Below the pieces are notes generated by a model. It was not told the origin of the DNA, did not search any database, and worked only from the letters and a program-made list of their open reading frames with translations. A stretch of DNA of 30,601 nt. It comes from a virus. The stretch covers positions 1 to 30,601 of IMG/VR virus record IMGVR_UViG_3300046018_000224. One strand, written 5' to 3'. Shown here in pieces: positions 1 through 26,944 of this stretch; position 1 is the first letter of the stretch, and each line of letters starts with the position of its first letter. The position numbers and the translations under genes were made by a program.

Positions 1-3000
1 GCCATCACCAGCGAGACCCGTGGCCAGAACTCCTGGCTGAACTATGGGCCGCATGCCGAGAAGAACCAGACTGCCAAGGTCGAAGACACCGTCTTCGCTG
101 ACCAGAAGACCGGGCTGATGCCTGAGTGGACCTGGAGCGAAGGTGTGGCTGGCGACGAATCCCCTCGCATGAGTGCCAAGCAGGACCCCTGGTACAGCGC
201 CCTCGAGCGCCGCCTGGGCACCGTCGACATGAAGGCCGGCCCCGCACAGGGCTGGAATGGCGTCATCAAGGGCCTGGTGGCCAAGGGCGACGTCAAGGCC
301 GACGAGGTCGAGTGGTCCGGCATCAACGACTGGCTGGCGCTGCAGCAGGGCAAGGTCACCAAGGACCAGGTGCTGCAGTTCCTGGCCGGAAACGGCGTGA
401 AGCTGGAAGAGACGGTGCATGGCGCAGGCTCCCTGCACAAGGAGTTCTCCTCCTTTGGCTCTGCGCGCGACTTCCTGCGGGAATATCACGATCAGACCAA
501 GGCAGAGTTCAACGCCGACTATGGGGACTTCAGCGACCAGGAGGTCATCGACACGGCCAATGATCTCTTCGCTGAAACCTACCCCGACAGCGCGGCCCAG
601 ACGAAGTACCACAGCTACACCCTGCCAGGCGGCACCAACTACCGTGAGGTGCTGCTGACGCTGCCGCCAAAAGTCAACTCCAATGATGAGTGGCGCGCTG
701 CTGTAGCGCAGAAACACGCACGGTCTATTGCAGAGTCTGCAGCAGCCTTGCGTTACGCCGAAGAAAAATTCGGACCATTCAGTGATGAGGCGGCTGAAGC
801 GCAAGAGATTGCTAGGCAAGCCCGAGTCGCCCGTGACGCCGACCTGACAGAAGCGGCGCGCACCAAGTTCAATGCCAGTGCGGAAAAAGTCAACTATCTA
901 TCCGGACACTGGGACCAGCCCAACATCCTGGCCCACATCCGCGTCAACGACCGCACAGATGCCGACGGCAAGCGCGTGCTGTTCGTGGAGGAGATCCAGA
1001 GCGACTGGGCGCAGGAGGGCAAGAAGAAAGGTATCACGGGCGACCTGATTCCGCAGAACACCGAATGGCAGGCGGTAGACACCTTGGAGCGCACAGCCTC
1101 TCGCGCTGCTGCGGAGACTTGGATTCGGCGCAATCCGCCGCCCAACCCCGGCGAAAACATGGAGGCGCGGCTGGTCATCAGAGAGATCAATCGCGGCACT
1201 TTCGATGTATTGGAGGAGCAGCGCAGCACGGTCAGTCAGGCGCCGAACAGGGGCGGCGTGCCGCGCGCCCCCTTCATAGACAAGACCGACAAGTGGGTCG
1301 CCCTGGCCCTGAAGCGCGTCATCAAGATGGCCGTCGATGAGGGCTACGACAAGGTGGCGTTCGTCACGGGCGACCAGAGCGCCGACCGATATGACCTGAG
1401 CAGCCAGGTCAACTACATCCAGTGGAACCCCGGGTTCAGCTCCGACCTGAACGTCATGCGTACGCTCGTGCAGCTCGAGACGTCCGGCGGCAATACCATC
1501 GGCTTCGAGGTGAACACGCCGGCCGGCGGGAAGGGCGTCATCGCCGAAGGAGACTTCGAAGGCAAGACCCTCGAGGATGTCCTCGGCAAGGAGATCGCGC
1601 AGAAGATCAACCAGGACGACAGCGGAGATCTGCGCGGCCTTGACCTCAAGGCCGGCGGCGAAGGCATGAAGGCCTTCTACGACAAGATCGTGCCGGCCGT
1701 GGCCAAGGACGTGCTGCGCAAGCTGGGTGGTGGGCGGATGGAGTCGGTGGATCTCGCAGATCAACGCACCAGCGCGTTTACTGGCGAGCCGACTGGCGAG
1801 TACGACATCACGCACGAAGGTCAGCCCGGCTTCGACATCACCCCCGCCATGCGCGAGAAGGCGGCCGACGGCCTGCCGATGTTCAGTCGCAAGCAGACCG
1901 ACAACAGTGGCGCCTTCGACCCGACCAACCCAGACATCCGCTTCAGCCACCAGCAGCAGCCGGTGCCCGAGGAGACCCGCTACGAGGCCAGCCGGCGCGT
2001 GATCCAGGACCAGCACCTCCGCATGCAGAAGATCCGCACCTGGGCGCTGGAGAACGGCGCGCAGCTCAGCCTGGCATCTGACGTCTATGGGGCCGAGGAG
2101 CGCATGCATGGCCGCACAGCCACACGCATCGAGGACTTCCGCGAGAAGACCTTCAAGCCACTGATCGAGCGCGCCCAGCGGGCCGGCTTCAGCCTGGACG
2201 ACATTGCCCAGGTGCTGCACGCGCAGCATGCCGATGAGCGCAACCAGCAGGTCGCCAGGATCAACCCGCAGATGCCAGATGGCGGCAGCGGCATGGACAC
2301 CGCAGACGCGCAGCAGATCCTGGCTGCAGCCAGCCCGCAGCTCAAGGCTATCGCGGCCCAGTTCCAGGCCATCACGACCCGGGCCAAGGACATCCTGCTG
2401 CGCGGCGGGATCATCACCCCGGAGCAGTCTGCAGCCTGGAGCGCTGCCTACCAGCACTACGTCCCCCTGAAGGGCGGGGATGATGCCGAGGCCAGCAAGA
2501 CTGGCACCGGCAAGGGCCTGAGCGTCAATGGCAAGACCAAGCGGGCCATGGGCCACACGCTGCGCGAGGAGCACATCCTCGAGAACATCATGCGCGACTA
2601 TGAGCGTGCAGTGATGCTGGTCGAAAAGAACCGTGTCGGCCAGACCATGATGCTGTGGCTGACCGAGATGGCCGACCCTCGGATCGGCACAGTCGACCAG
2701 CCGGTCAAGCGGGCCATGCTGGTCAACAGCAAGCAGTACGACGTCCGCGCGCAGAACCCTGCGCTGTCGGTGGCCACCTTCGACACCCGGGCCGATGCCG
2801 AGAAGTTCATCCGCGACCAGATCAGGGTCAGGTCTCCCGGCGCGCACCGCCTGGTGATCCGAGAGATGGTGGGCGACCCGATGGTCCAGTACCGGGCCCG
2901 CCCGATGCTCGAGGAGCACGAGGCGCAGGTCTACGTCAACGGCCACGCCGTGCGCATGCAGATCAACGACCCGCTGCTGGCCCAGTCCTACAAGCGCCTG

Positions 3001-4782
3001 AACAGCGACCAGATGGGCAAGCTGATCCAGATCAGCCGCAACATCAACACGTTCCTGTCGCGGGCCTACACCGGCTACAACCCGGCCTTCATCCCGCGCA
3101 ACCTGATCCGGGACTTCGGATCCGGCGTGATCAAGCTGACCGGGAACTTCGGCGTCAAAACGACGGCCGGCGTCCTGGCCAAGTACCCCAAGGCCCTGGC
3201 CAGCTTGCTGCGCTACAGCTTCAGCGGCACCAGCACCCCGCTGATCGACCAGTACCGGGCCAGCGGCGGCAGCACGGGCGCAGCCTACCTGGGCGACCTG
3301 GAGCGCATTGGCACCGACATCCAGAAGCAGTACGAGGAATACGTCGGCGTCAAGGCCCTGGCGATGCAGGGCAGGTACAAGGCCAGCGCGCGGGTTGCTG
3401 CGGGCAAGGTCATCGGTGGCCTGGCCGGCTGGATCGAGCGCCTGAACGGGGCGACTGAGAACGCCATGCGGCTGGCTGCCTTCGAGCAGGTTCTTCAGGA
3501 GACTGGGTCGGTCGATCAGGCTGCCAGCGCCGGCAAGAACAGCACCCTGAACTTCAACCGCAAGGGCGAGATGGGCGGCACGCTGGGCGCCCTGTACCTG
3601 TTCTTCAACCCCAACGTGCAGGACACAGCGTCGATCATCGACATGTTCACCAAGGGCAAGCACAAGGGCCAGGCTATGGCGCTTGTGTGGGGCATGCTGG
3701 CGTCTGCCTATTCCCTGGCCGCCCTGCAGTTCGGCGGCGGCGACGACGACTACCAGCGCTGGCTCAAGATCAGCAACAACGTCAAGGACCGCAACCTCAT
3801 CCTGCGCACTGGCGAGGACACCTACATCACCATCCCGGTGCCGTTCGGGTTCGGCATCTTCCACAGCCTGGGCAATGCGATGTTCGACCTGCAGCGCGGC
3901 AGCAGCATCAACGAGCTGTCGGTCAGCATCGCCAACTCCCTCCTGTCGAACTTCAGCCCGGTCGGAAATCCGCTCGAGGGCGCCAAGACCTGGGGCACAG
4001 CAGACCCCAAGGGCCTTGTCGAGCTGATACCCGGATATGCCGGCGGCGAGCTGTTCCGCGATGCCGCACGCATCGTCGCGAACCGTTCCAGCTTCGGTAG
4101 CCCCATCGTTCCGGACTCGAAATTCGATGAGGGCCGGCCTGACTTCCTGCGCTTGAACCGCAGCACCAAGGGCAGCAGCTACGACATGCTGGCCCGTGGG
4201 ATGAGTGACCTGACGGGCGGAACGGCCACACAGAGTGGCGCGGTCGACATCAGCCCAGAGACCCTGAAGTTCTGGGCCAGCGCCCTGACCGGCGGCACCG
4301 GCACCTTCTTGTCGGACCTGACGCACCTGGCGGGCTTGGGTGTTCGGGCCGGCATGAGCAACCCAGACAACGACGCCCTGGCGCCGGAGCGCCACGAGAT
4401 CCCCATCCTGCGCGACTACACCAAGCAGGAACGGGTGACAGACAGCCGGCGCGCCTTCTGGGATGCCAGCAACGAAGCCAAGGCCGCGCTGCTGGACTTC
4501 CAGCGTGCAGCCAAGGCCGGCGATGAGGACGGCATGAACAAGGTGTCTGCGGACAACGAGGAGCTGCTGGCCCTAGCCCGGGGCGCCAAGGGCTACCAGA
4601 AGCAGATCAAGTCGCTGCGCGACCGGGTCGATGAGATCAACGGGGACAAGACCCTGAGCCTGGCCTACCAGCGCGGTGCGGTGAAGCAGCTCGAGCGGGA
4701 TGAGGCCGAGGTCTACGACCAGTTCCTGCGATCGGTCACGCTGGGCCGGGCAGAGGCCCTGAAGCGGAAGGCTGGTCTGTAG
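1..4782 (+). CDS. Giant phage polyvalent protein, 5'-truncated by window edge
   Basis: The frame is open from the first base, so the gene begins outside the window; the ATG at 118 is probably internal. At least 1593 codons are visible. Around 979-1008 it reads LFVEEIQSDW, inside a block (about 600-1400) seen in very long phage polyproteins. A linker-like NxGxFDPxNPDIRFS segment lies near 1909-1947. The part from about 3040 to 3900 (YNPAFIPRNLIRD, then YLFFNPNVQD) resembles the LPD38 large-polyvalent-protein domain. The C-terminus is charged and helical. Proteins of this type are thought to be packaged and injected with phage DNA to act early in the host; that role is family knowledge, not shown here. 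It closes the rightward late region, and its last 47 bases overlap a leftward gene. Domain numbering is from memory, so the exact LPD assignment is uncertain. Confidence 0.85.
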   Translation, partial: AITSETRGQNSWLNYGPHAEKNQTAKVEDTVFADQKTGLMPEWTWSEGVAGDESPRMSAKQDPWYSALERRLGTVDMKAGPAQGWNGVIKGLVAKGDVKADEVEWSGINDWLALQQGKVTKDQVLQFLAGNGVKLEETVHGAGSLHKEFSSFGSARDFLREYHDQTKAEFNADYGDFSDQEVIDTANDLFAETYPDSAAQTKYHSYTLPGGTNYREVLLTLPPKVNSNDEWRAAVAQKHARSIAESAAALRYAEEKFGPFSDEAAEAQEIARQARVARDADLTEAARTKFNASAEKVNYLSGHWDQPNILAHIRVNDRTDADGKRVLFVEEIQSDWAQEGKKKGITGDLIPQNTEWQAVDTLERTASRAAAETWIRRNPPPNPGENMEARLVIREINRGTFDVLEEQRSTVSQAPNRGGVPRAPFIDKTDKWVALALKRVIKMAVDEGYDKVAFVTGDQSADRYDLSSQVNYIQWNPGFSSDLNVMRTLVQLETSGGNTIGFEVNTPAGGKGVIAEGDFEGKTLEDVLGKEIAQKINQDDSGDLRGLDLKAGGEGMKAFYDKIVPAVAKDVLRKLGGGRMESVDLADQRTSAFTGEPTGEYDITHEGQPGFDITPAMREKAADGLPMFSRKQTDNSGAFDPTNPDIRFSHQQQPVPEETRYEASRRVIQDQHLRMQKIRTWALENGAQLSLASDVYGAEERMHGRTATRIEDFREKTFKPLIERAQRAGFSLDDIAQVLHAQHADERNQQVARINPQMPDGGSGMDTADAQQILAAASPQLKAIAAQFQAITTRAKDILLRGGIITPEQSAAWSAAYQHYVPLKGGDDAEASKTGTGKGLSVNGKTKRAMGHTLREEHILENIMRDYERAVMLVEKNRVGQTMMLWLTEMADPRIGTVDQPVKRAMLVNSKQYDVRAQNPALSVATFDTRADAEKFIRDQIRVRSPGAHRLVIREMVGDPMVQYRARPMLEEHEAQVYVNGHAVRMQINDPLLAQSYKRLNSDQMGKLIQISRNINTFLSRAYTGYNPAFIPRNLIRDFGSGVIKLTGNFGVKTTAGVLAKYPKALASLLRYSFSGTSTPLIDQYRASGGSTGAAYLGDLERIGTDIQKQYEEYVGVKALAMQGRYKASARVAAGKVIGGLAGWIERLNGATENAMRLAAFEQVLQETGSVDQAASAGKNSTLNFNRKGEMGGTLGALYLFFNPNVQDTASIIDMFTKGKHKGQAMALVWGMLASAYSLAALQFGGGDDDYQRWLKISNNVKDRNLILRTGEDTYITIPVPFGFGIFHSLGNAMFDLQRGSSINELSVSIANSLLSNFSPVGNPLEGAKTWGTADPKGLVELIPGYAGGELFRDAARIVANRSSFGSPIVPDSKFDEGRPDFLRLNRSTKGSSYDMLARGMSDLTGGTATQSGAVDISPETLKFWASALTGGTGTFLSDLTHLAGLGVRAGMSNPDNDALAPERHEIPILRDYTKQERVTDSRRAFWDASNEAKAALLDFQRAAKAGDEDGMNKVSADNEELLALARGAKGYQKQIKSLRDRVDEINGDKTLSLAYQRGAVKQLERDEAEVYDQFLRSVTLGRAEALKRKAGL

Positions 4783-5464: not shown

Positions 5465-6421
5465 TCATCCAACCTTCCGCCCGATCTTCCCCACTGCCAG
5501 CGCTTGCCGCTGCGTGCTGTGGTGGCTGTATCGCATCGTGCTGGCTGCGCTCTTGTGGCCCAGCACCTTCCCCACGGTGGCCAAATCCTCGCCCGCGTTC
5601 ACCATCTCCGTCGCCGCTGTGTGCCTCAAGTCGTGCAGCGTGATGTGCTGCAGCCCGCAGGCCTCGCGCGCCATCGGCCACCAGTAGTCGATCACGCTGC
5701 GCGGCGGCATAGGCACGCGAGATGCGGCCAGCGCCCTGGGGTGGATTGGGATCACGCGCGGTTCGCCATTCTTGGTGTCGGCCAGGACGAAGAATCCCCC
5801 ACTGCGCACGGCGCGCTGCGCCTCGCTGACACGCATGCCGCTGAAGTACAGGACCCAGAGCAAGGCGCGCACACCGCGATGCCGGCAGGCCCTGGCCAAC
5901 TGCAGCACCTGGGCGCGCGTGGCTGTCGTTGTGCGGGCGTTGTCGACCACCGGAGCTACCACCCTGGCGCCCGGGTCCTGCTCGCCCATGCCGTGGCGCT
6001 TCCAGGACCACCGGCAGGCCGACCGCAGGTAGGCGATTCGGTTCTTGATGGTCGCTGGCTTCAGCGCGCCGTGCTGGTCTGCCGCGTATTCGGCACAGAC
6101 GGCAGCCAGGTCATCGATTGCCCGACCATCCCACCAATCTCTCAAGGCCTCAATCTCGCGCGCTGCATTGGCGCCGGCCTTGAGCTGCGGAACCCGGTCC
6201 TTCAGGTAGCGAGCGACAGCTTGACCAATGGTGAACCGAGGCTTGGCAATGCCGTGCGCGAGCGCTGACAGGGCCGAGCTTTCCTTGCGGTCGTAGGCTT
6301 CGGCTTGGTCGCGCGACCAGCCGGCAGGGAGAAGCTGACGCCTGCGAACGCGGCAGCTATCGATGCGCCGGTCATAGTCGAATCGCCATCGGCCGCTGGG
6401 CTTGTCTTTGTAGATCGACAT
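5465..6421 (-). CDS. int: Phage tyrosine integrase
   Basis: A 318-residue tyrosine recombinase that would insert and excise the phage at the tRNA-Cys site. The expected catalytic set is visible: R197 (SGMRVSE), K217 (TKNGE), H263 and R266 (HDLRHT), H289 (LGHKS) and the nucleophile Y298 (MRYSHHS). The N-terminal 60 residues (MSIYKDKPSGRWRFDYDRR) fit an arm-binding domain, and residues 65-150 a SAM-like core-binding domain. Length is normal for short phage integrases. The gene ends 84 bp from the att core and is last in the leftward operon before att. Its first 220 bases overlap, in another frame, the end of the excisionase-like gene. Confidence 0.95.
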   Translation of the reverse strand: MSIYKDKPSGRWRFDYDRRIDSCRVRRRQLLPAGWSRDQAEAYDRKESSALSALAHGIAKPRFTIGQAVARYLKDRVPQLKAGANAAREIEALRDWWDGRAIDDLAAVCAEYAADQHGALKPATIKNRIAYLRSACRWSWKRHGMGEQDPGARVVAPVVDNARTTTATRAQVLQLARACRHRGVRALLWVLYFSGMRVSEAQRAVRSGGFFVLADTKNGEPRVIPIHPRALAASRVPMPPRSVIDYWWPMAREACGLQHITLHDLRHTAATEMVNAGEDLATVGKVLGHKSAASTMRYSHHSTQRQALAVGKIGRKVG

Positions 6422-11994: not shown

Positions 11995-12705
11995 TCAGAA
12001 AAGTTCGGGAAGGGCTGTGGGGGTCACCGCATTTGCGGCGGGTGTTGCGGCTGGTGCTGGTGCCGTGGTCGGTGCGGATTGCGCTGGCTGCATCAGCTTG
12101 CGAAGCTCGGCCTCGAAGCTGGCCGTCAGCGATTCATGCTCCATCAGGTCCTTGACCAGAGCCTCGATCTCGGCCTCGTTGCGCTCGATGCGAATGACCT
12201 TCATCAGATCCAGATCGGCGCAGTACAGCGTCAGGTCCATCCAGTCCAGGTGCAGCAGCCACATGGCGCCCAGGCACTGGTCGACGTATTCGGTGATGTC
12301 GCCATGCACCAGGGTCTTGAACAGCGTGTCGCTGCTGACCATGGTCTTGCACTCCCAGCCACCCTTGGTGTCGATCAGGCCATCGACAGACGCGCCGAAG
12401 AGCCGGTCTTCGGTGAAGGCGAAGCCAACCTCATCGACCAGCACACCCTTCAGCAGCTCGTACTTCTGGCGGGCGACCGCTTCCATCTTGCTTCCCAGGC
12501 GCATGGCTTCGGTCTGGTAGATGTCTGGCGCCTGGCCGCCAAGGCGCTCTCGCGCCAGGTCCATGCCGTACTGGATGCAGGGCTTTGACATATGGCCGCC
12601 CCTGATACGCTCGCGGCAGACCTTGAACTTGCTGGCGGTGCGCACACCGCGCCTGGCTGCTTTCCATTCATCAGACCCCTGCGGGGCAAGGCTCCACTTG
12701 ATCAT
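11995..12705 (-). CDS. YqaJ-type viral recombinase (lambda-exonuclease fold)
   Basis: A 236-residue PD-(D/E)XK nuclease. Visible motifs: GSDEWKAARRG (10-20), E75 in GSKMEAVA, D108 in ASVDGLID, and E118-x-K120 in WECKT. This set is the active site of lambda-exonuclease-like YqaJ enzymes, which resect double-strand ends 5' to 3' to give ssDNA for an annealing protein. The C-terminal 35 residues are a proline/alanine/threonine tail beyond the fold. It overlaps the ERF gene by 4 bases, so exonuclease and annealase form one translationally coupled recombination module. Confidence 0.9.
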   Translation of the reverse strand: MIKWSLAPQGSDEWKAARRGVRTASKFKVCRERIRGGHMSKPCIQYGMDLARERLGGQAPDIYQTEAMRLGSKMEAVARQKYELLKGVLVDEVGFAFTEDRLFGASVDGLIDTKGGWECKTMVSSDTLFKTLVHGDITEYVDQCLGAMWLLHLDWMDLTLYCADLDLMKVIRIERNEAEIEALVKDLMEHESLTASFEAELRKLMQPAQSAPTTAPAPAATPAANAVTPTALPELF

Positions 12706-18577: not shown

Positions 18578-18709
18578 ATGGCCTGCGTGGACGCATGCAA
18601 ATGCACCGGCACGCAGGCCACGAAGCCCAACCGGGGGGTAGACGTTGAGACAGGGCAGCGGGGTGGCGAAGCTAGTGCCCCAGCGTCGAGCGACTGGCGG
18701 GTCATGTAA
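18578..18709 (+). CDS. Possible 43-residue cysteine-containing protein
   Basis: A short frame starting MACVDACKCTGTQATKP, 10 bases after the Toprim stop. Its start has only a weak AGG upstream and its 5' end coincides with a long inverted repeat, so the frame may be an accident of structured DNA. An overlapping frame downstream ends with CNCDECRFM, again cysteine-rich; a frameshift splitting one zinc-binding protein is conceivable. Low confidence. Confidence 0.2.
   Translation: MACVDACKCTGTQATKPNRGVDVETGQRGGEASAPASSDWRVM
18579..18620. repeat. 11-bp perfect inverted repeat in the 255-bp gap after the primase gene
   Basis: TGGCCTGCGTG (18579-18589) and CACGCAGGCCA (18610-18620) are exact reverse complements, with a 20-base spacer that itself contains GCAT-GCAA-ATGC. 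The gap from 18568 to 18822 otherwise holds no convincing gene. Neither strand shows a U tract after it, so simple intrinsic termination is unlikely. Possible roles are a replication-origin hairpin, a structured RNA or a protein-binding site. Confidence 0.6.
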
Positions 18710-21771: not shown

Positions 21772-22221
21772 TTAGTTATCGAGCAGTGCCAGGGCCTCGG
21801 TGTACTTGGCCACGAGCCGCAGGCGAACATCGTCTGGCAGCAGCGCCAGGCGATCGGGGTCGATGTTGTCCTCGATGTCGCAGCGCTTCACCAGGTCTGG
21901 GCCGAAGCCCAGGAGGTCTGGGTTTCTCGGTAGCTGCCTGTCGACGTATTCAAGGTAGCTTTCATCAAACCCCCTGGTCAGACTGAGGACACATGCGATC
22001 ACGCTGCGTGGCAGGCCGGCCTCTCGCAGTTCGGGGATGCTGACGTTGGTGTCCTCGAGTGCATCGTGGAACAGCGCTACCAACTGCGCTAGATGGCCGC
22101 CGCCGGCATCCTGCACGCGCAGCATGACCCGCGTCAGGTGCTCGATGTACGGGCGGCCGGCCTTGTCGACCTGGCCGGCATGGAGCTGGGCGGCCACCTT
22201 GTAGGCGTCGATGAGCTTCAT
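21772..22221 (-). CDS. SpoT-type HD-domain (p)ppGpp hydrolase-like protein
   Basis: A 149-residue HD protein close to the hydrolase domain of RelA/SpoT and the small alarmone hydrolases (MESH1-type). Seen: LHAGQVDKAGRPYIEHL (H28), FHDALEDT (H52-D53, E56-D57) and KRCDIEDN (D115, N119). The length equals a bare hydrolase domain without synthetase or TGS regions. It may remove host alarmone and keep the cell growing during phage development; this is inference, and some HD relatives act on other nucleotides. It overlaps the next upstream gene by 4 bases. Confidence 0.8.
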   Translation of the reverse strand: MKLIDAYKVAAQLHAGQVDKAGRPYIEHLTRVMLRVQDAGGGHLAQLVALFHDALEDTNVSIPELREAGLPRSVIACVLSLTRGFDESYLEYVDRQLPRNPDLLGFGPDLVKRCDIEDNIDPDRLALLPDDVRLRLVAKYTEALALLDN

Positions 22222-22421
22222 GCCGGCGTCTTCCTCAAGTCGCAGGCGATGTCGCGGATGCGCTGGCCGCGAACAGCATGTTGGTGGAAGTATGGCCGAC
22301 CCAGGCTTTCACGCCAGCCGCAGCCGTCTTCGTTGCTGCTGAATCGCCAGTCATTGTGGCCCCACCGGATCAGGGGCCCTACCATGGCGCGAGCGCGCCG
22401 CAATGCCTCAGTCTTGCTCAT
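22218..22421 (-). CDS. Hypothetical phage protein
   Basis: A 67-residue basic protein (SKTEALRRARAMVGPLIRWG, RPYFHQHAVRGQRIRDIACDLRK). Two adjacent ATG codons (22424 and 22421) follow a GGAGG; the second has the better spacing. It overlaps both neighbours. No domain recognised. Confidence 0.6.
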   Translation of the reverse strand: MSKTEALRRARAMVGPLIRWGHNDWRFSSNEDGCGWRESLGRPYFHQHAVRGQRIRDIACDLRKTPA

Positions 22422-22627
22422 CATTGGACCTCCAGTCCGTCGTTGATCATGCCCTCGACGATGTCGCCGAGGTAGCGGGGCTCGACGACGATGCCGTGGG
22501 CGCCCCACGTCAGCGCATCGCTGGCCAGATTGTTGTCCATCCATTCACGGCCGGCCTCGGTCAGGCCATTGACGATGAGGATGGAGCCGTGATTGTCGAT
22601 GCGCACGTCGGCGCTTGCATTGGCCAT
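22421..22627 (-). CDS. Hypothetical small phage protein
   Basis: A 68-residue acidic protein with a beta-alpha-beta pattern (SADVRIDNHGSILIVNGLTEAGREWMDNNL, then GIVVEPRYLGDIVEGM). Similar small proteins occur in phage accessory clusters, function unknown. AAGGAGG lies 10 bases upstream. A hairpin element fills the gap to the next gene. Confidence 0.65.
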   Translation of the reverse strand: MANASADVRIDNHGSILIVNGLTEAGREWMDNNLASDALTWGAHGIVVEPRYLGDIVEGMINDGLEVQ

Positions 22628-22650
22628 GGCGGCCCTCCTTGGTGGTTGAT

Positions 22651-22689
22651 CACACAGGACTGCAGCGCACGCGCCGCAGGGTCTGTGGG
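22651..22689 (-). other. Intergenic stem-loop element E8
   Basis: CACAG (22653-22657) pairs with CTGTG (22683-22687), and CTGC (22660-22663) with GCAG (22676-22679), giving a stacked hairpin between the genes at 22698 and 22627. It is a divergent member of the family seen at 23186-25916: same place relative to stop and ribosome binding site, different arms. Confidence 0.5.
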
Positions 22690-22697
22690 GTCAGGGG

Positions 22698-22904
22698 TCA
22701 GTAGTCGCCGAACGTGCAGACCGGCCCGCAGTGGGATTTCTTGCAGTCATGCGACCGGATGTCAGCCAGGCGCTGGGCATCGCTGCTCGAGCGCTGATTG
22801 CGCCAGGTCCGAGGCGGCATGCCCAGGCGCAGCTCGGTACAGCGCGGGCATCCGTCAACCTTTCGGCCGAAGACCACCGGGTGTGTGTGCTGGGTCGTAT
22901 CCAT
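22698..22904 (-). CDS. Small zinc-finger-like phage protein
   Basis: A 68-residue protein with CPRC near residues 19-22 and a C-terminal cluster HDCKKSHCGPVCTFGD. The VDGCPRCTEL opening and CGPVCTFGD ending form a pattern common in phage genes of unknown function, presumably binding zinc. It is 7 bases downstream of the previous gene, the only junction in this group without a hairpin. Confidence 0.7.
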   Translation of the reverse strand: MDTTQHTHPVVFGRKVDGCPRCTELRLGMPPRTWRNQRSSSDAQRLADIRSHDCKKSHCGPVCTFGDY

Positions 22905-22911
22905 GGATGTG

Positions 22912-23163
22912 TCACTCCTGGTTGATGTCGTTGATCAGGCTGGTGCGCTCGAAGGCGGCCTGGCGCTGCGCCTGATCGGGTTCGATCTCGACGCTGCGCG
23001 TCTCGTAGCCGATCTGCCGCAGGATGCGGATGGCCTCACGCAGTTGCCGGTGCTGGGGCTCGCGCTGGTCGAGCATCAGGCCGAAGGTTCGGCGCTCGAA
23101 GACGCCGATGGCGCCGTCGCGCCGCACGTTGGCGACGACAGCGGTATGGGACAGGTGGGGCAT
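22912..23163 (-). CDS. Hypothetical phage protein
   Basis: An 83-residue protein (MPHLSHTAVVANVRRDGAIG, RQLREAIRILRQIGYETRSVEI). The start at 23163 follows AGGAG by 8 bases and is preferred to 23199, which lies inside the hairpin element. Alternating strands and helices suggest a small alpha/beta fold; no domain recognised. Confidence 0.65.
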   Translation of the reverse strand: MPHLSHTAVVANVRRDGAIGVFERRTFGLMLDQREPQHRQLREAIRILRQIGYETRSVEIEPDQAQRQAAFERTSLINDINQE

Positions 23164-23185
23164 GACAGGCTCCTGTTGGCGTTGG

Positions 23186-23232
23186 TGGATCACAAGCACG
23201 AGCCCCGCACGCGGGGCAAGTGGCTGGGATCA
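23186..23232 (-). other. Intergenic stem-loop element E7
   Basis: Outer GATC (23188-23191) and GATC (23228-23231), AAGCACG/AAGTGGCTGG internal segments, and an apical GCCCCGC/GCGGGGC helix. It begins on the minus strand with the TGA stop of the gene at 23230. Arms resemble those of E1-E3 (TGATCCCAGCC against TGATCTCAGCC). Confidence 0.7.
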
Positions 23233-23454
23233 GTTGATGCGCTTGACGACGACAGCGCCGCTGGCCTCGACAGCCCTTCCGCTTTTGTTGGCCAGGGCAC
23301 GCTCGCCCAGGTCGGCTGCGAGCATGTCGAGATCGATCTCGATGGTCACTTGGCCGCGCTGCGCCGCACGCACCACCCGACGGCTGCCGTCCGGGTTCTT
23401 GTTCCACGACAGAATCTCTGGCGCGTCGACATCGACGGTGAAAATCTTCTTCAT
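23230..23454 (-). CDS. Hypothetical phage protein
   Basis: A 74-residue protein (MKKIFTVDVDAPEILSWNKN, GQVTIEIDLDMLAADLGERAL) with two beta strands and a helix. GGAG lies 8 bases ahead of the ATG. Its stop codon is part of hairpin E7 and its ribosome binding site follows hairpin E1. No domain recognised. Confidence 0.65.
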   Translation of the reverse strand: MKKIFTVDVDAPEILSWNKNPDGSRRVVRAAQRGQVTIEIDLDMLAADLGERALANKSGRAVEASGAVVVKRIN

Positions 23455-23483
23455 GCTGTTGCTCCAGTTGGTCGATCAGGGAT

Positions 23484-23528
23484 TGATCGCACTCGCAGGG
23501 GCCCAGAAGGCCCGAGCGGCTGAGATCA
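23484..23528 (-). other. Intergenic structured element E1
   Basis: Minus strand: TGATCTCAGCCGCT arm, apical stem GGGCC/GGCCC, then GCGAGTGCGATCA arm. The outer TGATC pairs with GATCA and CGC with GCG, leaving an internal loop between. The leading TGA is the stop codon of the gene at 23526. Followed 30 bases later by the TGGAG ribosome binding site. Confidence 0.8.
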
Positions 23529-23810
23529 GATCTCGGCGGTGGCGGCTTCGAGCGGGCGTCCGAAGTACTCCAGGTTGAACCACTCACCCCGGTCGCTCAG
23601 AGTCATGTAGCCGTGGTTGCCGCCGAAGCAGTAGCGCTGCTCGTTCACGCTCCACCAGAACTCGCTGCCGGGCGGGTCTCCAGGCGCGGCCAGGCGTTTC
23701 AGCATGTTGTTGGCCAGCTCGCAGATGCGATCTGCGTGGGCCTTGTCGCGCGGCGGCTGCAGCTCGATCCACACGCGCGGCGGCAGGTCTTTGGCAGGCT
23801 TCTTGGTCAT
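23526..23810 (-). CDS. Hypothetical phage protein
   Basis: A 94-residue protein (MTKKPAKDLPPRVWIELQPP, EFWWSVNEQRYCFGGNHGYM). Start at 23810 is supported by TGGAG 7 bases upstream; earlier codons lie in hairpin E2. Aromatic-rich centre, no domain recognised. Confidence 0.65.
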   Translation of the reverse strand: MTKKPAKDLPPRVWIELQPPRDKAHADRICELANNMLKRLAAPGDPPGSEFWWSVNEQRYCFGGNHGYMTLSDRGEWFNLEYFGRPLEAATAEI

Positions 23811-23837
23811 GGTTGCTCCAGGTTGGCAATCGGGGAT

Positions 23838-23883
23838 CGATCGCACTCGCATCCCCTCCGCAGAGGGGCAGCGGCTGAGATCA
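23838..23883 (-). other. Intergenic structured element E2
   Basis: Same arms as E1 (TGATCTCAGCCGCT and GCGAGTGCGATC), but the apical stem is CCCCTC-TGCG-GAGGGG, different in sequence from E1 and E3 and still fully paired. The leading TGA is the stop of the gene at 23881. Confidence 0.8.
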
Positions 23884-24129
23884 GGCTTCGGCTGCGAACC
23901 AGGCATGCGCCTGGGCGTTCTCGAAGGTCAGGTACAGCGACAATCGCTGCGCGCGGTTCAGCGTGAAGGGCGCACCGACACGGCTGGTGTGCAGATACCA
24001 GTCCTTCAGCATGGCCTGGCCGTTGGCGGTCAGGTGGTTGTCGTACTCGAAGGCCGCGTGCTCGCGCGGCAGGCCGTCGCGGTGGGCGAACTCGATGAAG
24101 TGGTGGCGGGTGCCAGACGGTGGGCGCAT
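23881..24129 (-). CDS. Hypothetical phage protein
   Basis: An 82-residue protein (MRPPSGTRHHFIEFAHRDGL, GAPFTLNRAQRLSLYLTFEN). Start at 24129 follows TGGAG by 7 bases. It has no recognised domain; histidine- and phenylalanine-rich N-terminal half. Confidence 0.65.
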   Translation of the reverse strand: MRPPSGTRHHFIEFAHRDGLPREHAAFEYDNHLTANGQAMLKDWYLHTSRVGAPFTLNRAQRLSLYLTFENAQAHAWFAAEA

Positions 24130-24147
24130 GGTGGTCTCCAGGTGGAT

Positions 24148-24193
24148 TGATCGCACTCGCGAGCACCCCGCAGGGCGCAAGCGGCTGAGATCA
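24148..24193 (-). other. Intergenic structured element E3
   Basis: Arms as in E1 and E2; apical stem GCGCCC-TGCG-GGGTGC (one G-U pair). It begins 6 bases after the stop of the gene at 24200. Its apex is shared almost exactly with E5, whose arms differ, as if apex and arms are separate modules. Confidence 0.8.
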
Positions 24194-24199
24194 GCGTGG

Positions 24200-24979
24200 T
24201 CAGGCGGCCTGGTCGATGTAGACGCCAGTGACCTGCTCCAGCGTGCGCCGGCCCTTCGTCTTGCTGGGCATCAGCATCACCTGGCCGGTGCTGCGCTCCA
24301 GCTCGACGTAGCGCCGGTACAGCGTCGGGTTCAAGCCGGCCGCAGTGCGCAGGTCGTGCTCGCTGGCCATCACGCAGAAACAGCAGCTAAAGCGCGACAT
24401 GCCCTGGGCGTAGACCGCGTGCGGCTCCTGGCCGGCGGCCTTGATGGTCGCGAAGACCTCATCGACCAGCATGTCGTGGATGGGCAGCCAGTCGTACCAC
24501 TCGCGGCCGGCCTTGCTGTTCTTGTCGGACAGCTTGAACGTCGTCAGCTTGGCGCGGCTGCTCGACTCCTGGGCACGCATACCCATGCAGTTCACGATGA
24601 TGTCAGCACCGACCTGGCGTAGCTGCCGGCGGCGCTCGACAAGGCCACGAATGGTCCGCTCGATGGGGCCGCGCTTCAGGTCCGACGTGCATTGCCGCAG
24701 CGTGGGCGACGGGAACATGCCGCGCTCTTCGATCATCTCGAGCAGCGTGCGGCGGGACCGGGTGACGTGCAGCGGCAGCGTCGTGGTCGCCTTGATGTGC
24801 TCCTGGGCGCCGGCCCACTCGACTTCACCCAGGTCGGCGTGGACGATGACCAGTTGCTCACGCGGCACCAGCGACTCGAGCTTGATGCACATCGCCTGGC
24901 TGTCCTTGCCGCCGCTGTGGTTGACGACGAACAGGGCGCCGCGCTTGATCAGCGCCTGGATCTCGTTGGGTACTTGCAT
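24200..24979 (-). CDS. PAPS-reductase-like PP-loop ATPase
   Basis: A 259-residue protein of the adenine nucleotide alpha-hydrolase (PP-loop) fold. SGGKDS (22-27) is the ATP pyrophosphatase P-loop; R95-Q-C97-T...K102 matches the RxCT..LK..P motif of PAPS reductase relatives; further GMRAQES (133-139) and C199-x-x-C202. Such enzymes activate a substrate by adenylation, often to transfer sulfur. In phages they are linked by some to DNA phosphorothioation or nucleotide modification (DndC-like), but no dnd partner genes are visible. Start at 24979 after AAGGAAC. It is the largest gene of this operon. Confidence 0.8.
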   Translation of the reverse strand: MQVPNEIQALIKRGALFVVNHSGGKDSQAMCIKLESLVPREQLVIVHADLGEVEWAGAQEHIKATTTLPLHVTRSRRTLLEMIEERGMFPSPTLRQCTSDLKRGPIERTIRGLVERRRQLRQVGADIIVNCMGMRAQESSSRAKLTTFKLSDKNSKAGREWYDWLPIHDMLVDEVFATIKAAGQEPHAVYAQGMSRFSCCFCVMASEHDLRTAAGLNPTLYRRYVELERSTGQVMLMPSKTKGRRTLEQVTGVYIDQAA

Positions 24980-24994
24980 GGTGTTCCTTGCGGG

Positions 24995-25037
24995 TTGAAC
25001 TGGTCTACCCAGCAAGCTGGGCAGAGCGCTTCAATCA
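24995..25037 (-). other. Intergenic structured element E4
   Basis: Minus strand: TGATTGAAGCGCT arm, apical CTGCCCAG-CTTG-CTGGGTAG stem (8 pairs, one G-U), then ACCAGTTCAACC arm; TTGAA pairs with TTCAA. The leading TGA is the stop of the gene at 25035. Second arm class, shared with E5. Confidence 0.8.
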
Positions 25038-25547
25038 GCGGGCGTCGACTTCCCAGACCAGGGTCAGGTAGGCCGGGTTCTTGTCGCGGGCAGCGTCCTT
25101 GGCCTTGAAGGCCAGGTCTCTGCTGCTGTGCCAGGACAGCACGCAGTTGCCAGTGGCCTTCTTGAGGGCGATGTACTTCTCGAGCCTGGCGAGGCTCTGG
25201 GCCGACAGCTTCGCGGCGAACTCCTCGACCGTCGTCGCACCGTCGAGCCACTTCAGAGCGCTGTCCTTGTCGCGCTGCTCGATCGGCCAGCTCCAGCAGA
25301 GCTTCACGCGGCCGTCGCGCACCTCAGTCTGTTTCGGGATCTCGCCGAGCGGCGTGTCCAGGCGCAGCCGGCAGAAGCTCCATCCGCTCTTCGCATCAGC
25401 GTCGACCGTGCTGTGCGCTGCGAACGATCGGCGCGCGGCGTCCTCATCGAAGTCGGTCAGGATGACTGCATGCGTGTAGGGCCTGTCGGTGCTGCGGGTG
25501 CCGATCACGCGGCCGTTGAAGGTGACGGACAGTCTGGGCTTTGCCAT
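25035..25547 (-). CDS. Hypothetical phage protein
   Basis: A 170-residue protein (MAKPRLSVTFNGRVIGTRST, then RPYTHAVILTDFDEDAARRS; helical ARLEKYIALKKATG; WHSSRDLAFKAKDAARDKNP). AGGAG 8 bases before the ATG at 25547 supports this start over 25652. Beta-rich N-terminal half, helical second half, no catalytic motif seen. Confidence 0.7.
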   Translation of the reverse strand: MAKPRLSVTFNGRVIGTRSTDRPYTHAVILTDFDEDAARRSFAAHSTVDADAKSGWSFCRLRLDTPLGEIPKQTEVRDGRVKLCWSWPIEQRDKDSALKWLDGATTVEEFAAKLSAQSLARLEKYIALKKATGNCVLSWHSSRDLAFKAKDAARDKNPAYLTLVWEVDAR

Positions 25548-25566
25548 GTTGCTCTCCTGAGCGTGG

Positions 25567-25609
25567 TTGAACTGGCATGCACCCCGCAGGGCGCATGGCG
25601 CTTCAATCA
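25567..25609 (-). other. Intergenic structured element E5
   Basis: Arms TGATTGAAGCGC and CCAGTTCAACC as in E4; apex ATGCGCCC-TGCG-GGGTGCAT, extended from the E3 apex. The leading TGA is the stop of the gene at 25607. Confidence 0.8.
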
Positions 25610-25855
25610 CAGGACGCTGTAGACACCGTCCCACGAGTAGCCGGTCAGCCACTCCTTCAGGTTCAGGCTCCAGGGGGCGACGTTGCAGACGCGGGCCAGG
25701 AACGCTTCAGCGCGCTCCCGGGTGCGGAAGACAGCGCGGTGGGCAATCGGATCCCACAGCGAATCGGGGCAGTCGCGGGTGATGCCGCCGACGCGGAAGC
25801 CGACGACTTCGTTGCGGAAGGTGACGGGCACGACCTTGAGATTGCGGATGGACAT
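25607..25855 (-). CDS. Hypothetical phage protein, first gene of second leftward operon
   Basis: An 82-residue protein (MSIRNLKVVPVTFRNEVVGF, RTRERAEAFLARVCNVAPWS). AGGAG is 8 bases ahead. It is the promoter-proximal gene, about 220 bases from the predicted transcription start. The opening resembles that of the next gene (both VTF-N-x-V-x-G), hinting at a distant duplication. Function unknown. Confidence 0.65.
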   Translation of the reverse strand: MSIRNLKVVPVTFRNEVVGFRVGGITRDCPDSLWDPIAHRAVFRTRERAEAFLARVCNVAPWSLNLKEWLTGYSWDGVYSVL

Positions 25856-25871
25856 GAGGCTCTCCTGAGCG

Positions 25872-25916
25872 GGTTGGAAGGCACTGAACAGGCGAGCTGC
25901 GCAGTGCGCTCCAACC
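25872..25916 (-). other. Leader hairpin E6 upstream of first gene
   Basis: GGTTGGA (25872-25878) pairs with TCCAACC (25910-25916), and GCACTG (25881-25886) with CAGTGC (25902-25907). It lies in the mRNA leader in the same place relative to the ribosome binding site as the elements between genes, so it is not just a product of a preceding stop codon. The stretch 25917-26080 holds no gene but two palindromes (ATCGATGAATCGAT at 26027-26040; TGCAAAATTGCA at 26054-26065). Confidence 0.7.
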
Positions 25917-26080
25917 AAGGAGCTGTGAGGAATTGCGTGTCCTCGGGCATTCAGCGGTTCACACCCGGCTGCGGGTTCCACCTCCGGGCTACTCAGGCAG
26001 TTGGCGCCGCCTGTCTCAAAGCCGTGATCGATGAATCGATGTTGAAAATGTAATGCAAAATTGCAGAGCTGTGTTCTGAG

Positions 26081-26108
26081 ATTACACAAGCCATAGTAAA
26101 TCAGTCAA
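26081..26108 (-). promoter_or_regulatory. Promoter of second leftward operon
   Basis: On the minus strand TTGACT (26103-26108), a 16-base spacer and TGTAAT (26081-26086): 10 of 12 consensus bases. It sits in an AT-richer stretch. It lacks the CACGNNNGTG operator, but the palindrome TGCAAAATTGCA (26054-26065) lies just downstream of the expected start, so a different regulator may act here. No convincing sigma70 promoter was found for the rightward late genes. Confidence 0.65.
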
Positions 26109-26152: not shown

Positions 26153-26944
26153 ATGACCAGCACTCGGTGCTCGAATGCGCACATGACACTGAAGCCACGC
26201 CCGGCTTCCGATGTCCCGGCTGCTGCGCCGACAACGCAGCGCAAGGGCACCGCGAAGCGACCGTCAGCCAAGCAGACGGAGAAACCACCAGCGAAGAGCC
26301 CCTCGAAGCCTCCGAAAACTGCCAAAACAGTTCAGGAACGCAAGAGCGAGCGCTCACTTGTGCCAATCGCAAGCAAGGCCATGCCTCCAAAGGATCAGGA
26401 CGCATCGCAGCCAGACATCCTGTCGATGCTCCCCCTCGAGACGCACACGCCAGGCACACCGCAGCCGCTCAAGCGCGGGCGCAAGAGCAGCTACGACCGC
26501 GCGACCGGCGAGCTGGTGCTGGCGCGCATCGCCAATGGCGAGCTGCTCAACCGGATCGGGGAAGAGGTGGGAATGCCTACGGCTGCGGCTGTGAGGTCGT
26601 GGGTCATCTCCGATGTCGACGGGTTTGCAGCGAGGTACGCGCACGCGCGCGAGCTAGGCTGGCACTGGCACGGCGAAGAGATCCTCGAGCTGTCGAACAA
26701 GTGCCGCGTCGGCGCCAAGGTCAAGACCAGCGCGGACGGTGTCGAGATCCAGACGGCAGACATGGTCGATCGCACGAGGCTGCAGATCGACGCCCGCAAG
26801 TGGGTGCTCTCGAAGATGCTGCCCAAGGTCTATGGCGACAAGGTCAACGTCGACGCCAACGTCCAGCTCAGCGTGGCCGATGAGCTCAAGGCTCTGGCCC
26901 TGGCCGTTGTCCCTGCCCATGCACCGCTGCGTCGCGATGACTGA
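26153..26944 (+). CDS. Terminase small subunit
   Basis: A 263-residue protein that would recognise phage DNA and load it for packaging. After a basic, disordered K/P/A-rich N-terminal 105 residues, the body has a helix-turn-helix (LVLARIANGELLNRIGEEVG, then MPTAAAVRSWV), a YAHARELGWHWHGEEILEL helix, and a C-terminal RLQIDARKWVLSKMLPKVYG, the hallmark of Sf6-like small terminases. The long N-terminal extension is unusual for the family. It opens the late operon and overlaps the next gene by 8 bases. Confidence 0.85.
   Translation: MTSTRCSNAHMTLKPRPASDVPAAAPTTQRKGTAKRPSAKQTEKPPAKSPSKPPKTAKTVQERKSERSLVPIASKAMPPKDQDASQPDILSMLPLETHTPGTPQPLKRGRKSSYDRATGELVLARIANGELLNRIGEEVGMPTAAAVRSWVISDVDGFAARYAHARELGWHWHGEEILELSNKCRVGAKVKTSADGVEIQTADMVDRTRLQIDARKWVLSKMLPKVYGDKVNVDANVQLSVADELKALALAVVPAHAPLRRDD

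Follow-up and report, generated by a model that had tools for sequence, protein, structure and literature searches.

According to our analysis, short hairpin elements that separate consecutive genes of a leftward operon, in a viral DNA of 30,601 bases (an IMG/VR virus record, here called the window in its whole length), are a family of cis-acting structured RNAs in phage mRNA, as judged by comparison with other phages, and we infer for them a punctuation role at the mRNA level. The initial annotation of this DNA had described elements of one design, E1-E5 and E7, between the leftward genes, with E6 and E8 as looser members. The shared architecture of these six was borne out, and all six were recovered by a covariance model, R3, with zero window sequence in its training. 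The members in the window are listed with the bits and E-values of this hold-out search and with the z-scores of their folds.

23187..23232, minus strand: E7, sequence TGATCCCAGCCACTTGCCCCGCGTGCGGGGCTCGTGCTTGTGATCC, containing the stop of gene 23230-23454, with the next start 23 nucleotides (nt) on; 46 bits, E 7.8e-14; z -3.2
23484..23528, minus strand: E1, apex GGGCC/GGCCC, with the stop of gene 23526-23810 inside; 49.7 bits, E 3.5e-15; z -3.3
23838..23883, minus strand: E2, apex CCCCTC/GAGGGG, with the stop of gene 23881-24129 inside; 50.9 bits, E 1.3e-15; z -2.5
24148..24193, minus strand: E3, apex GCGCCC/GGGTGC, beginning with a second in-frame TGA 9 nt past the true stop of gene 24200-24979; 60.6 bits, E 5e-19; z -3.2
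24992..25037, minus strand: E4, second arm class TTGAA/TTCAA, with the stop of gene 25035-25547 inside; 27.2 bits, E 3.7e-7; z -3.4
25564..25609, minus strand: E5, second arm class, apex as in E3, with the stop of gene 25607-25855 inside; 32.7 bits, E 4.2e-9; z -3.6
25871..25917, minus strand: E6, loose member in the 5' leader; 23.1 bits with R1, the model built from the six window elements, and unreported with R2 and R3 (below threshold)
22652..22687, minus strand: diverged hairpin of the 22700-22627 junction, placed by fold and position only

Folding energies of E1-E5 and E7 are between -22 and -27 kcal/mol (z -2.5 to -3.6). From base to tip, E1-E3 and E7 have a basal stem, a 1x1 mismatch, CA/UG, a 2x2 loop, 3 base pairs (bp), a second 2x2 loop, 6 bp and a short loop, E7 carrying CAC/GTG in place of CGC/GCG; E4 and E5 have 5 bp, a 2x2 loop identical to that of the E1-E3 class, 1 bp, a 1x1 mismatch, 9 bp and a tetraloop. 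In both arm classes the conserved loop is 11 layers away from the apex. The apex varies independently of the arms, as had been noticed at the outset: E3 and E5 have the same apex, and E1-E3 the same arms. The 43-47 nt first given for the length becomes 45-46 nt in the window and about 39-50 nt across the family. That the first triplet is the stop codon of the upstream gene holds for E1, E2, E4, E5 and E7, while in E3 the gene stops 9 nt earlier and an in-frame TGA stands at the start. E6 (-26.8 kcal/mol, z -3.7), located 15 nt 5' of the first start codon of the operon, is a weak member detected by R1 only, and E8 could not be identified with confidence. The hairpin at 22652-22687 lies outside the range 23186-25916 described initially, gave no covariance-model match and is devoid of the AGC/AGU loop; it is a possible degenerate member of the family.

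Contigs were searched by R1 and by DNA patterns of the arms, and elements were found in about 23 other viral contigs and in one contig of a Burkholderiales metagenome-assembled genome, the carriers representing several phage groups with few proteins in common. In the final set of 59 distinct sequences, which are related and not independent, standard pairs occupy 97.0% of paired cells versus 71.8% after shuffling (0 of 500 shuffles reach 97.0%) and about 25-39% in slid controls, and both-sided compensatory changes occur at 14 of the 15 pairs; with the window sequences removed, the values are 97.2% and 13 of 15. R3 recovers the six window elements on the correct strand (E 5e-19 to 3.7e-7) with no additional match below E 0.07 on the same strand of the window, figures to be read with a short calibration of the covariance models, with carrier contigs originally found via window-derived patterns, and with a training alignment gathered by R2, which had seen the window elements while R3 had not. 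The initial annotation, which had recognised the compensatory variation, proposed a covariance-model search of other phages and named a lack of homologues with compensatory changes as the result that would speak against the idea; such homologues were found, and the idea survived. On the mRNA strand 35 G-U pairs stand against 17 A-C mismatches, as expected for pairing in RNA. Hairpins that are stable and GC-rich abound in such genomes, and scattered chance matches of 23-31 bits were met in bacterial chromosomes, which would fit ordinary intrinsic terminators or chance hairpins in GC-rich DNA. However, no window element has a U tract after its GC-rich hairpin, which agrees with the first description of them as non-terminators, and 37 other phage PAPS reductase loci are without elements except for a weak match in contig L004. 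Already contradicted by the covariation and by the hold-out recovery, with E down to 5e-19, this explanation is hardly credible.

The near-invariant part of the element is a 2x2 internal loop together with its A-U pair, 5'-A GC.../...AG U-3'. On its 5' side A is conserved in 100%, G in 95% and C in 95% of sequences, and on its 3' side A in 97%, G in 98% and U in 100%, whereas most stem columns are conserved to about 55-70%. An upper stem of 9 bp was counted in 44 of 57 sequences, and the apical loop is variable. Covarying stems, a near-invariant loop and an excess of G-U pairs, taken together, point to the folded RNA as the thing that is recognised.

The position of the element relative to genes is equally regular. 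Among 77 copies distinct by context, an upstream stop was recognised within 60 nt in 71 (TGA in 62 of these), and a downstream start with a Shine-Dalgarno-like sequence in 66; in at least 55 the stop lies in the 5' arm at a constant distance from the loop, most often at -8 or -6. Across the family 12-45 nt separate the element from the next start; in the window the figure is 12-29 nt from the end of the hairpin to the start codon, and the hairpin is followed by a spacer of ATCC or ACC and then by the Shine-Dalgarno site. In eight operons, whose genes were called by a simple script, the median intergenic gap is 66 nt with an element versus -1 nt without one (genes overlap or touch). Few long junctions are without an element, and two of these, one in the window and one in contig L085, contain other hairpins. 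Elements are also found 5' of the first gene (L085 at 5810, L105 at 1890, and E6 in the window), so that they are associated with the beginnings of units no less than with the ends. The elements differ in length (about 39-50 nt), so no constant frame runs through them in the frame test for a selenocysteine insertion sequence (SECIS) or readthrough. At 4480-7750 of contig L081, the repeating unit consists of an element, a gene and a tightly linked second gene.

We propose that a trans-acting factor of the host or the phage may read the internal loop once the mRNA is folded, and that translational units would be delimited by the elements. In the most probable version, processing or protection of the mRNA would take place at the element: one unit would then have a stable hairpin at its 3' end, and the ribosome-binding site of the next would be free. 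For the processing factor, the leading candidate would be an RNase III-like enzyme. As the stop codon is part of the 5' arm, the lower stem and the recognition loop would be opened for a short time by each ribosome that terminates there. To this reading, a loop recognised by a trans-acting factor with mRNA processed or protected at unit borders, we give a probability of roughly 45%, as far as comparison of sequences can carry it. Several observations weigh against it. The 3' side of the loop in E7 is CT and not AG, and the distance from loop to apex ranges from 8 to about 13 layers. No protein family is common to all element-bearing phages (the largest occurs in 7 of about 21 contigs compared), and no phage-encoded partner is evident for this reason. 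Known phage RNase III sites require no conserved sequence, so a specific binding protein would account for the conserved loop just as well.

The last point leads to a translational operator, in which a phage or host RNA-binding protein on the AGC/AGU loop would repress or activate translation of the next gene and coordinate the operon with no cutting of mRNA. A near-invariant internal loop amid covarying stems is the usual signature of recognition by a protein, the same element precedes genes of very different kinds, and a protein bound at window hairpins, given their 12-29 nt distance to the start, could block the 30S subunit. The absence of a phage protein common to the carriers speaks against such an operator, and so do the separate positions of the hairpin and the Shine-Dalgarno site, which do not overlap: predicted accessibility of this site is 0.53 versus 0.52 with the 5' arm masked (p 0.73, 47 copies). 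We consider the operator unlikely on balance, although it is the strongest of the competitors. A hairpin or switch that hides the Shine-Dalgarno site was discarded as unsupported, the predicted accessibility of the site being the same in both folds.

A second structure can be drawn in part of the copies. In many of them, from several lineages, the AGTGC of the 3' arm is followed after 5-6 nt by GCACT (for example, AGTGC-N6-GCACT), and altered versions of the downstream complement that still pair were also found, AGTGGCGCTTTTGCCA and GTGGTGCTTTTGCCAC; the Kolmogorov-Smirnov p for such complements is 6e-10, for sequences that are not independent. In the window, they are present at E1 (CGATCA/TGATCG) and E2 (GCGATCG/CGATTGC). 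The downstream pairing would be a competitor of the basal stem and, by folding models, could arise when a terminating ribosome covers the 5' arm; when 15 nt from the stop were masked in silico, the alternative pairing formed in several copies. It may be suggested from this that the element is a termination-coupled switch, where a ribosome at the stop would mask the 5' arm and release AGUGC of the 3' arm for pairing with GCACU just 5' of the Shine-Dalgarno site. The complement is absent, however, from E3-E5, E7 and elements with short spacers, and in silico masking leaves the Shine-Dalgarno site as accessible as before, which makes the switch improbable.

The operon in which these elements are placed is described by the following features.

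21772..25855, minus strand: leftward operon with elements (open reading frames; Pfam/PHROGs)
21772-22221, minus strand: HD-domain protein (Pfam/PHROGs)
24200-24979, minus strand: PAPS reductase-like protein (Pfam/PHROGs)
25856..26085, minus strand: 5' leader of about 225 nt (from sequence)
26153-26944, plus strand: small terminase gene, divergent from the operon

It is flanked by replication genes and by the divergent small terminase gene, and by open reading frames and Pfam/PHROGs its content is for the most part small proteins with no assigned function. A search with the large terminase, independent of the element, returned six loci, of which four (G429, G418, G419 and L127, at 72-75% identity) are on element-carrying contigs; the elements of G429 are at the opposite end of the same contig, hence none are in locus L175 itself, and the remaining two loci, short and more distant, have no elements. 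Compared with G418, G419 and G429, the ten operon genes of the window have a homologue for the last gene only. Moreover, an identical 46-nt element occurs in L105, L113 and L118 with differing flanking genes. Judged from these comparisons, the element belongs to the operon and not to its genes. Gene turnover is almost complete between near relatives in the terminase-divergent operon of the window, L081, L085, L105, L113, L119, L125, G418, G419 and G429. Operon genes of this group encode PAPS reductase-like, SprT-like and (by eye) DUF932-like proteins, proteins starting with FHIPAHKN, and many without assignment; the operon is a candidate hotspot for accessory or counter-defence genes.

Identical copies between different gene pairs and the turnover of gene content around them would also fit a DNA-level element, a recombination site or mobile repeat that shuffles cassettes, with the hairpin acting as single-stranded DNA. 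Integron attC sites and REP (repetitive extragenic palindromic) sequences are likewise imperfect hairpins after genes, with the fold conserved over the sequence and with exchange of neighbouring genes. Unlike them, the present elements have a sense orientation wherever flanking genes can be placed and are restricted to one cluster in one region of each contig, with neither the two orientations nor the genome dispersal of a mobile repeat; they are linked to a stop codon inside the hairpin, are absent at overlapping junctions, and show the pairing bias of RNA, with G-U exceeding A-C. Shuffling may also arise as a by-product of repeated homology. A role at the DNA level seems to us more improbable still than the switch. 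We rank processing or stabilisation first, translational control by a bound protein second, the termination-coupled switch third and recombination at the DNA level fourth. The three roles named in the initial annotation (RNA processing sites, mRNA stabilisers and binding sites for a translation regulator) are inseparable from sequence alone, and a hairpin that hides the Shine-Dalgarno site is disfavoured.

Among known systems, the RNase III sites of phage T7 are nearest in anatomy and in inferred function, cleavage being here a candidate only. Each of these is a hairpin about 50 nt long that contains internal loops; copies recur between the genes of an operon and leave the next ribosome-binding site free, and the same is seen here. 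RNase III sites in general are imperfect duplexes that span about two helical turns and contain internal loops, an anatomy matched by the about 19-21 stacked layers, mismatches included, of E1-E5 and E7. The differences are the stop codon inside the hairpin and a loop that is near-invariant across unrelated phages. A likeness to the extended start-associated sequences (ESAS) of cluster K mycobacteriophages, pointed out initially, stands for position before starts and for single orientation and does not extend to RNA pairing. ESAS are phage-specific inverted repeats before the starts of non-structural genes of varied families, in one orientation; they accompany a 13-bp start-associated sequence (SAS) over the ribosome-binding site, and there is 'little support' for mRNA hairpins formed by their arms (PMC3203893), whereas pairing is kept here in 97% of cells. 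The SAS, GGGATAGGAGCCC, was not found downstream of our elements, where variable ordinary Shine-Dalgarno sites stand instead. RegB of phage T4 cleaves the GGAG of the Shine-Dalgarno site when it is unpaired, and structure inhibits the enzyme (PMC3014915); RegB sites resemble the present ones in the intergenic control of mRNA at the translation starts of many genes together, and differ in that the conserved part is here a structured loop upstream of the Shine-Dalgarno site. We regard the elements as a new RNA family, a member of none of the compared systems, which would act like intercistronic processing or protein-binding hairpins.

Searches outside the carrier set gave little. By DNA pattern, 0 of 399 Burkholderiales genomes have the element, and a covariance scan of the order evaluated so few candidates in each genome that it does not count as a negative. 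Plasmids gave no element match, and among cultured phages no near relative with a checkable operon was returned by element BLAST or by searches with the SprT-like, FHIPAHKN and 94-amino-acid (aa) operon proteins and the terminase. Rfam 15 has no match at the elements in the window (E<=1) or in L081, L085 and L087 (E<=0.5), and no description of this element was found in the open literature searched. Relatives of the PAPS reductase, which were the expected carriers (37 viral and 18 genomic loci), proved to be without elements except L075 and the weak match in L004. The latter is a related hairpin of 24.8 bits at 12117-12160 of an 85-kb contig, between a stop and a start codon; the PAPS reductase of L004 is 75% identical to that of the window, and in the hairpin a C-G pair replaces the G.G mismatch of the loop. 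A pattern for the second arm class gave 15 matches, all of them random ones in coding sequence, an unfiltered folding scan of relatives was excessively noisy, and the remaining bacterial-genome matches, apparently in coding sequence and with no junction setting, were taken as chance.

The window phage looks like a temperate one by its gene content, which includes an integrase, a CI-like repressor, a helicase, a primase, ERF and YqaJ recombination proteins, and small and large terminases. A full-length match to Rfam RF02932, Betaproteobacteria-1 RNA, at 18580-18702 on the plus strand, 3' of the primase gene (86.8 bits versus a cut-off of 49.4), points to a betaproteobacterial host; the first assignment to a Burkholderiales phage is plausible and unproven. 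A 1554-aa protein at 118-4782 on the plus strand is similar in its C-terminal part to phrog_14770 and phrog_616, large phage proteins with function not assigned, and residues 264-431 match an endolysin family weakly. The leader of the operon, preceded by a promoter-like TTGACT-N16-TGTAAT, is one of several structured-looking leaders of 200-400 nt (window 25856-26085, minus strand; L085 about 5480-5810; L119 about 3100-3257; L087 reverse strand about 3450-3860). Stems of the CCACGGG/CCCGTGG type, apparently covarying, are seen in the leaders of L119, L113, L125 and L124, and the sequence CGCTGAAT...ATGCCCGAGG is common to the leaders of the window and L081. Rfam gave no match to the leaders of the window, L081, L085 and L087, and the leaders are possibly a second new RNA.

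We may even suggest, tentatively, that the elements represent an undescribed phage RNA punctuation, in which stop-embedded, protein-read hairpins would delimit units in an accessory operon that is hypervariable, and a newly acquired gene would thus be expressed once it is placed between two marks; the system would be common to otherwise unrelated phages, and its reader would be an RNA-binding protein or a nuclease. Since the elements persist amid gene replacement, they may serve as a handle by which this accessory-gene hotspot can be located in unrelated phages and its contents listed, while the near-invariant loop predicts a specific RNA-binding partner. If processing proves to be true, it would be a stop-codon-anchored way to split polycistronic phage mRNA into units.

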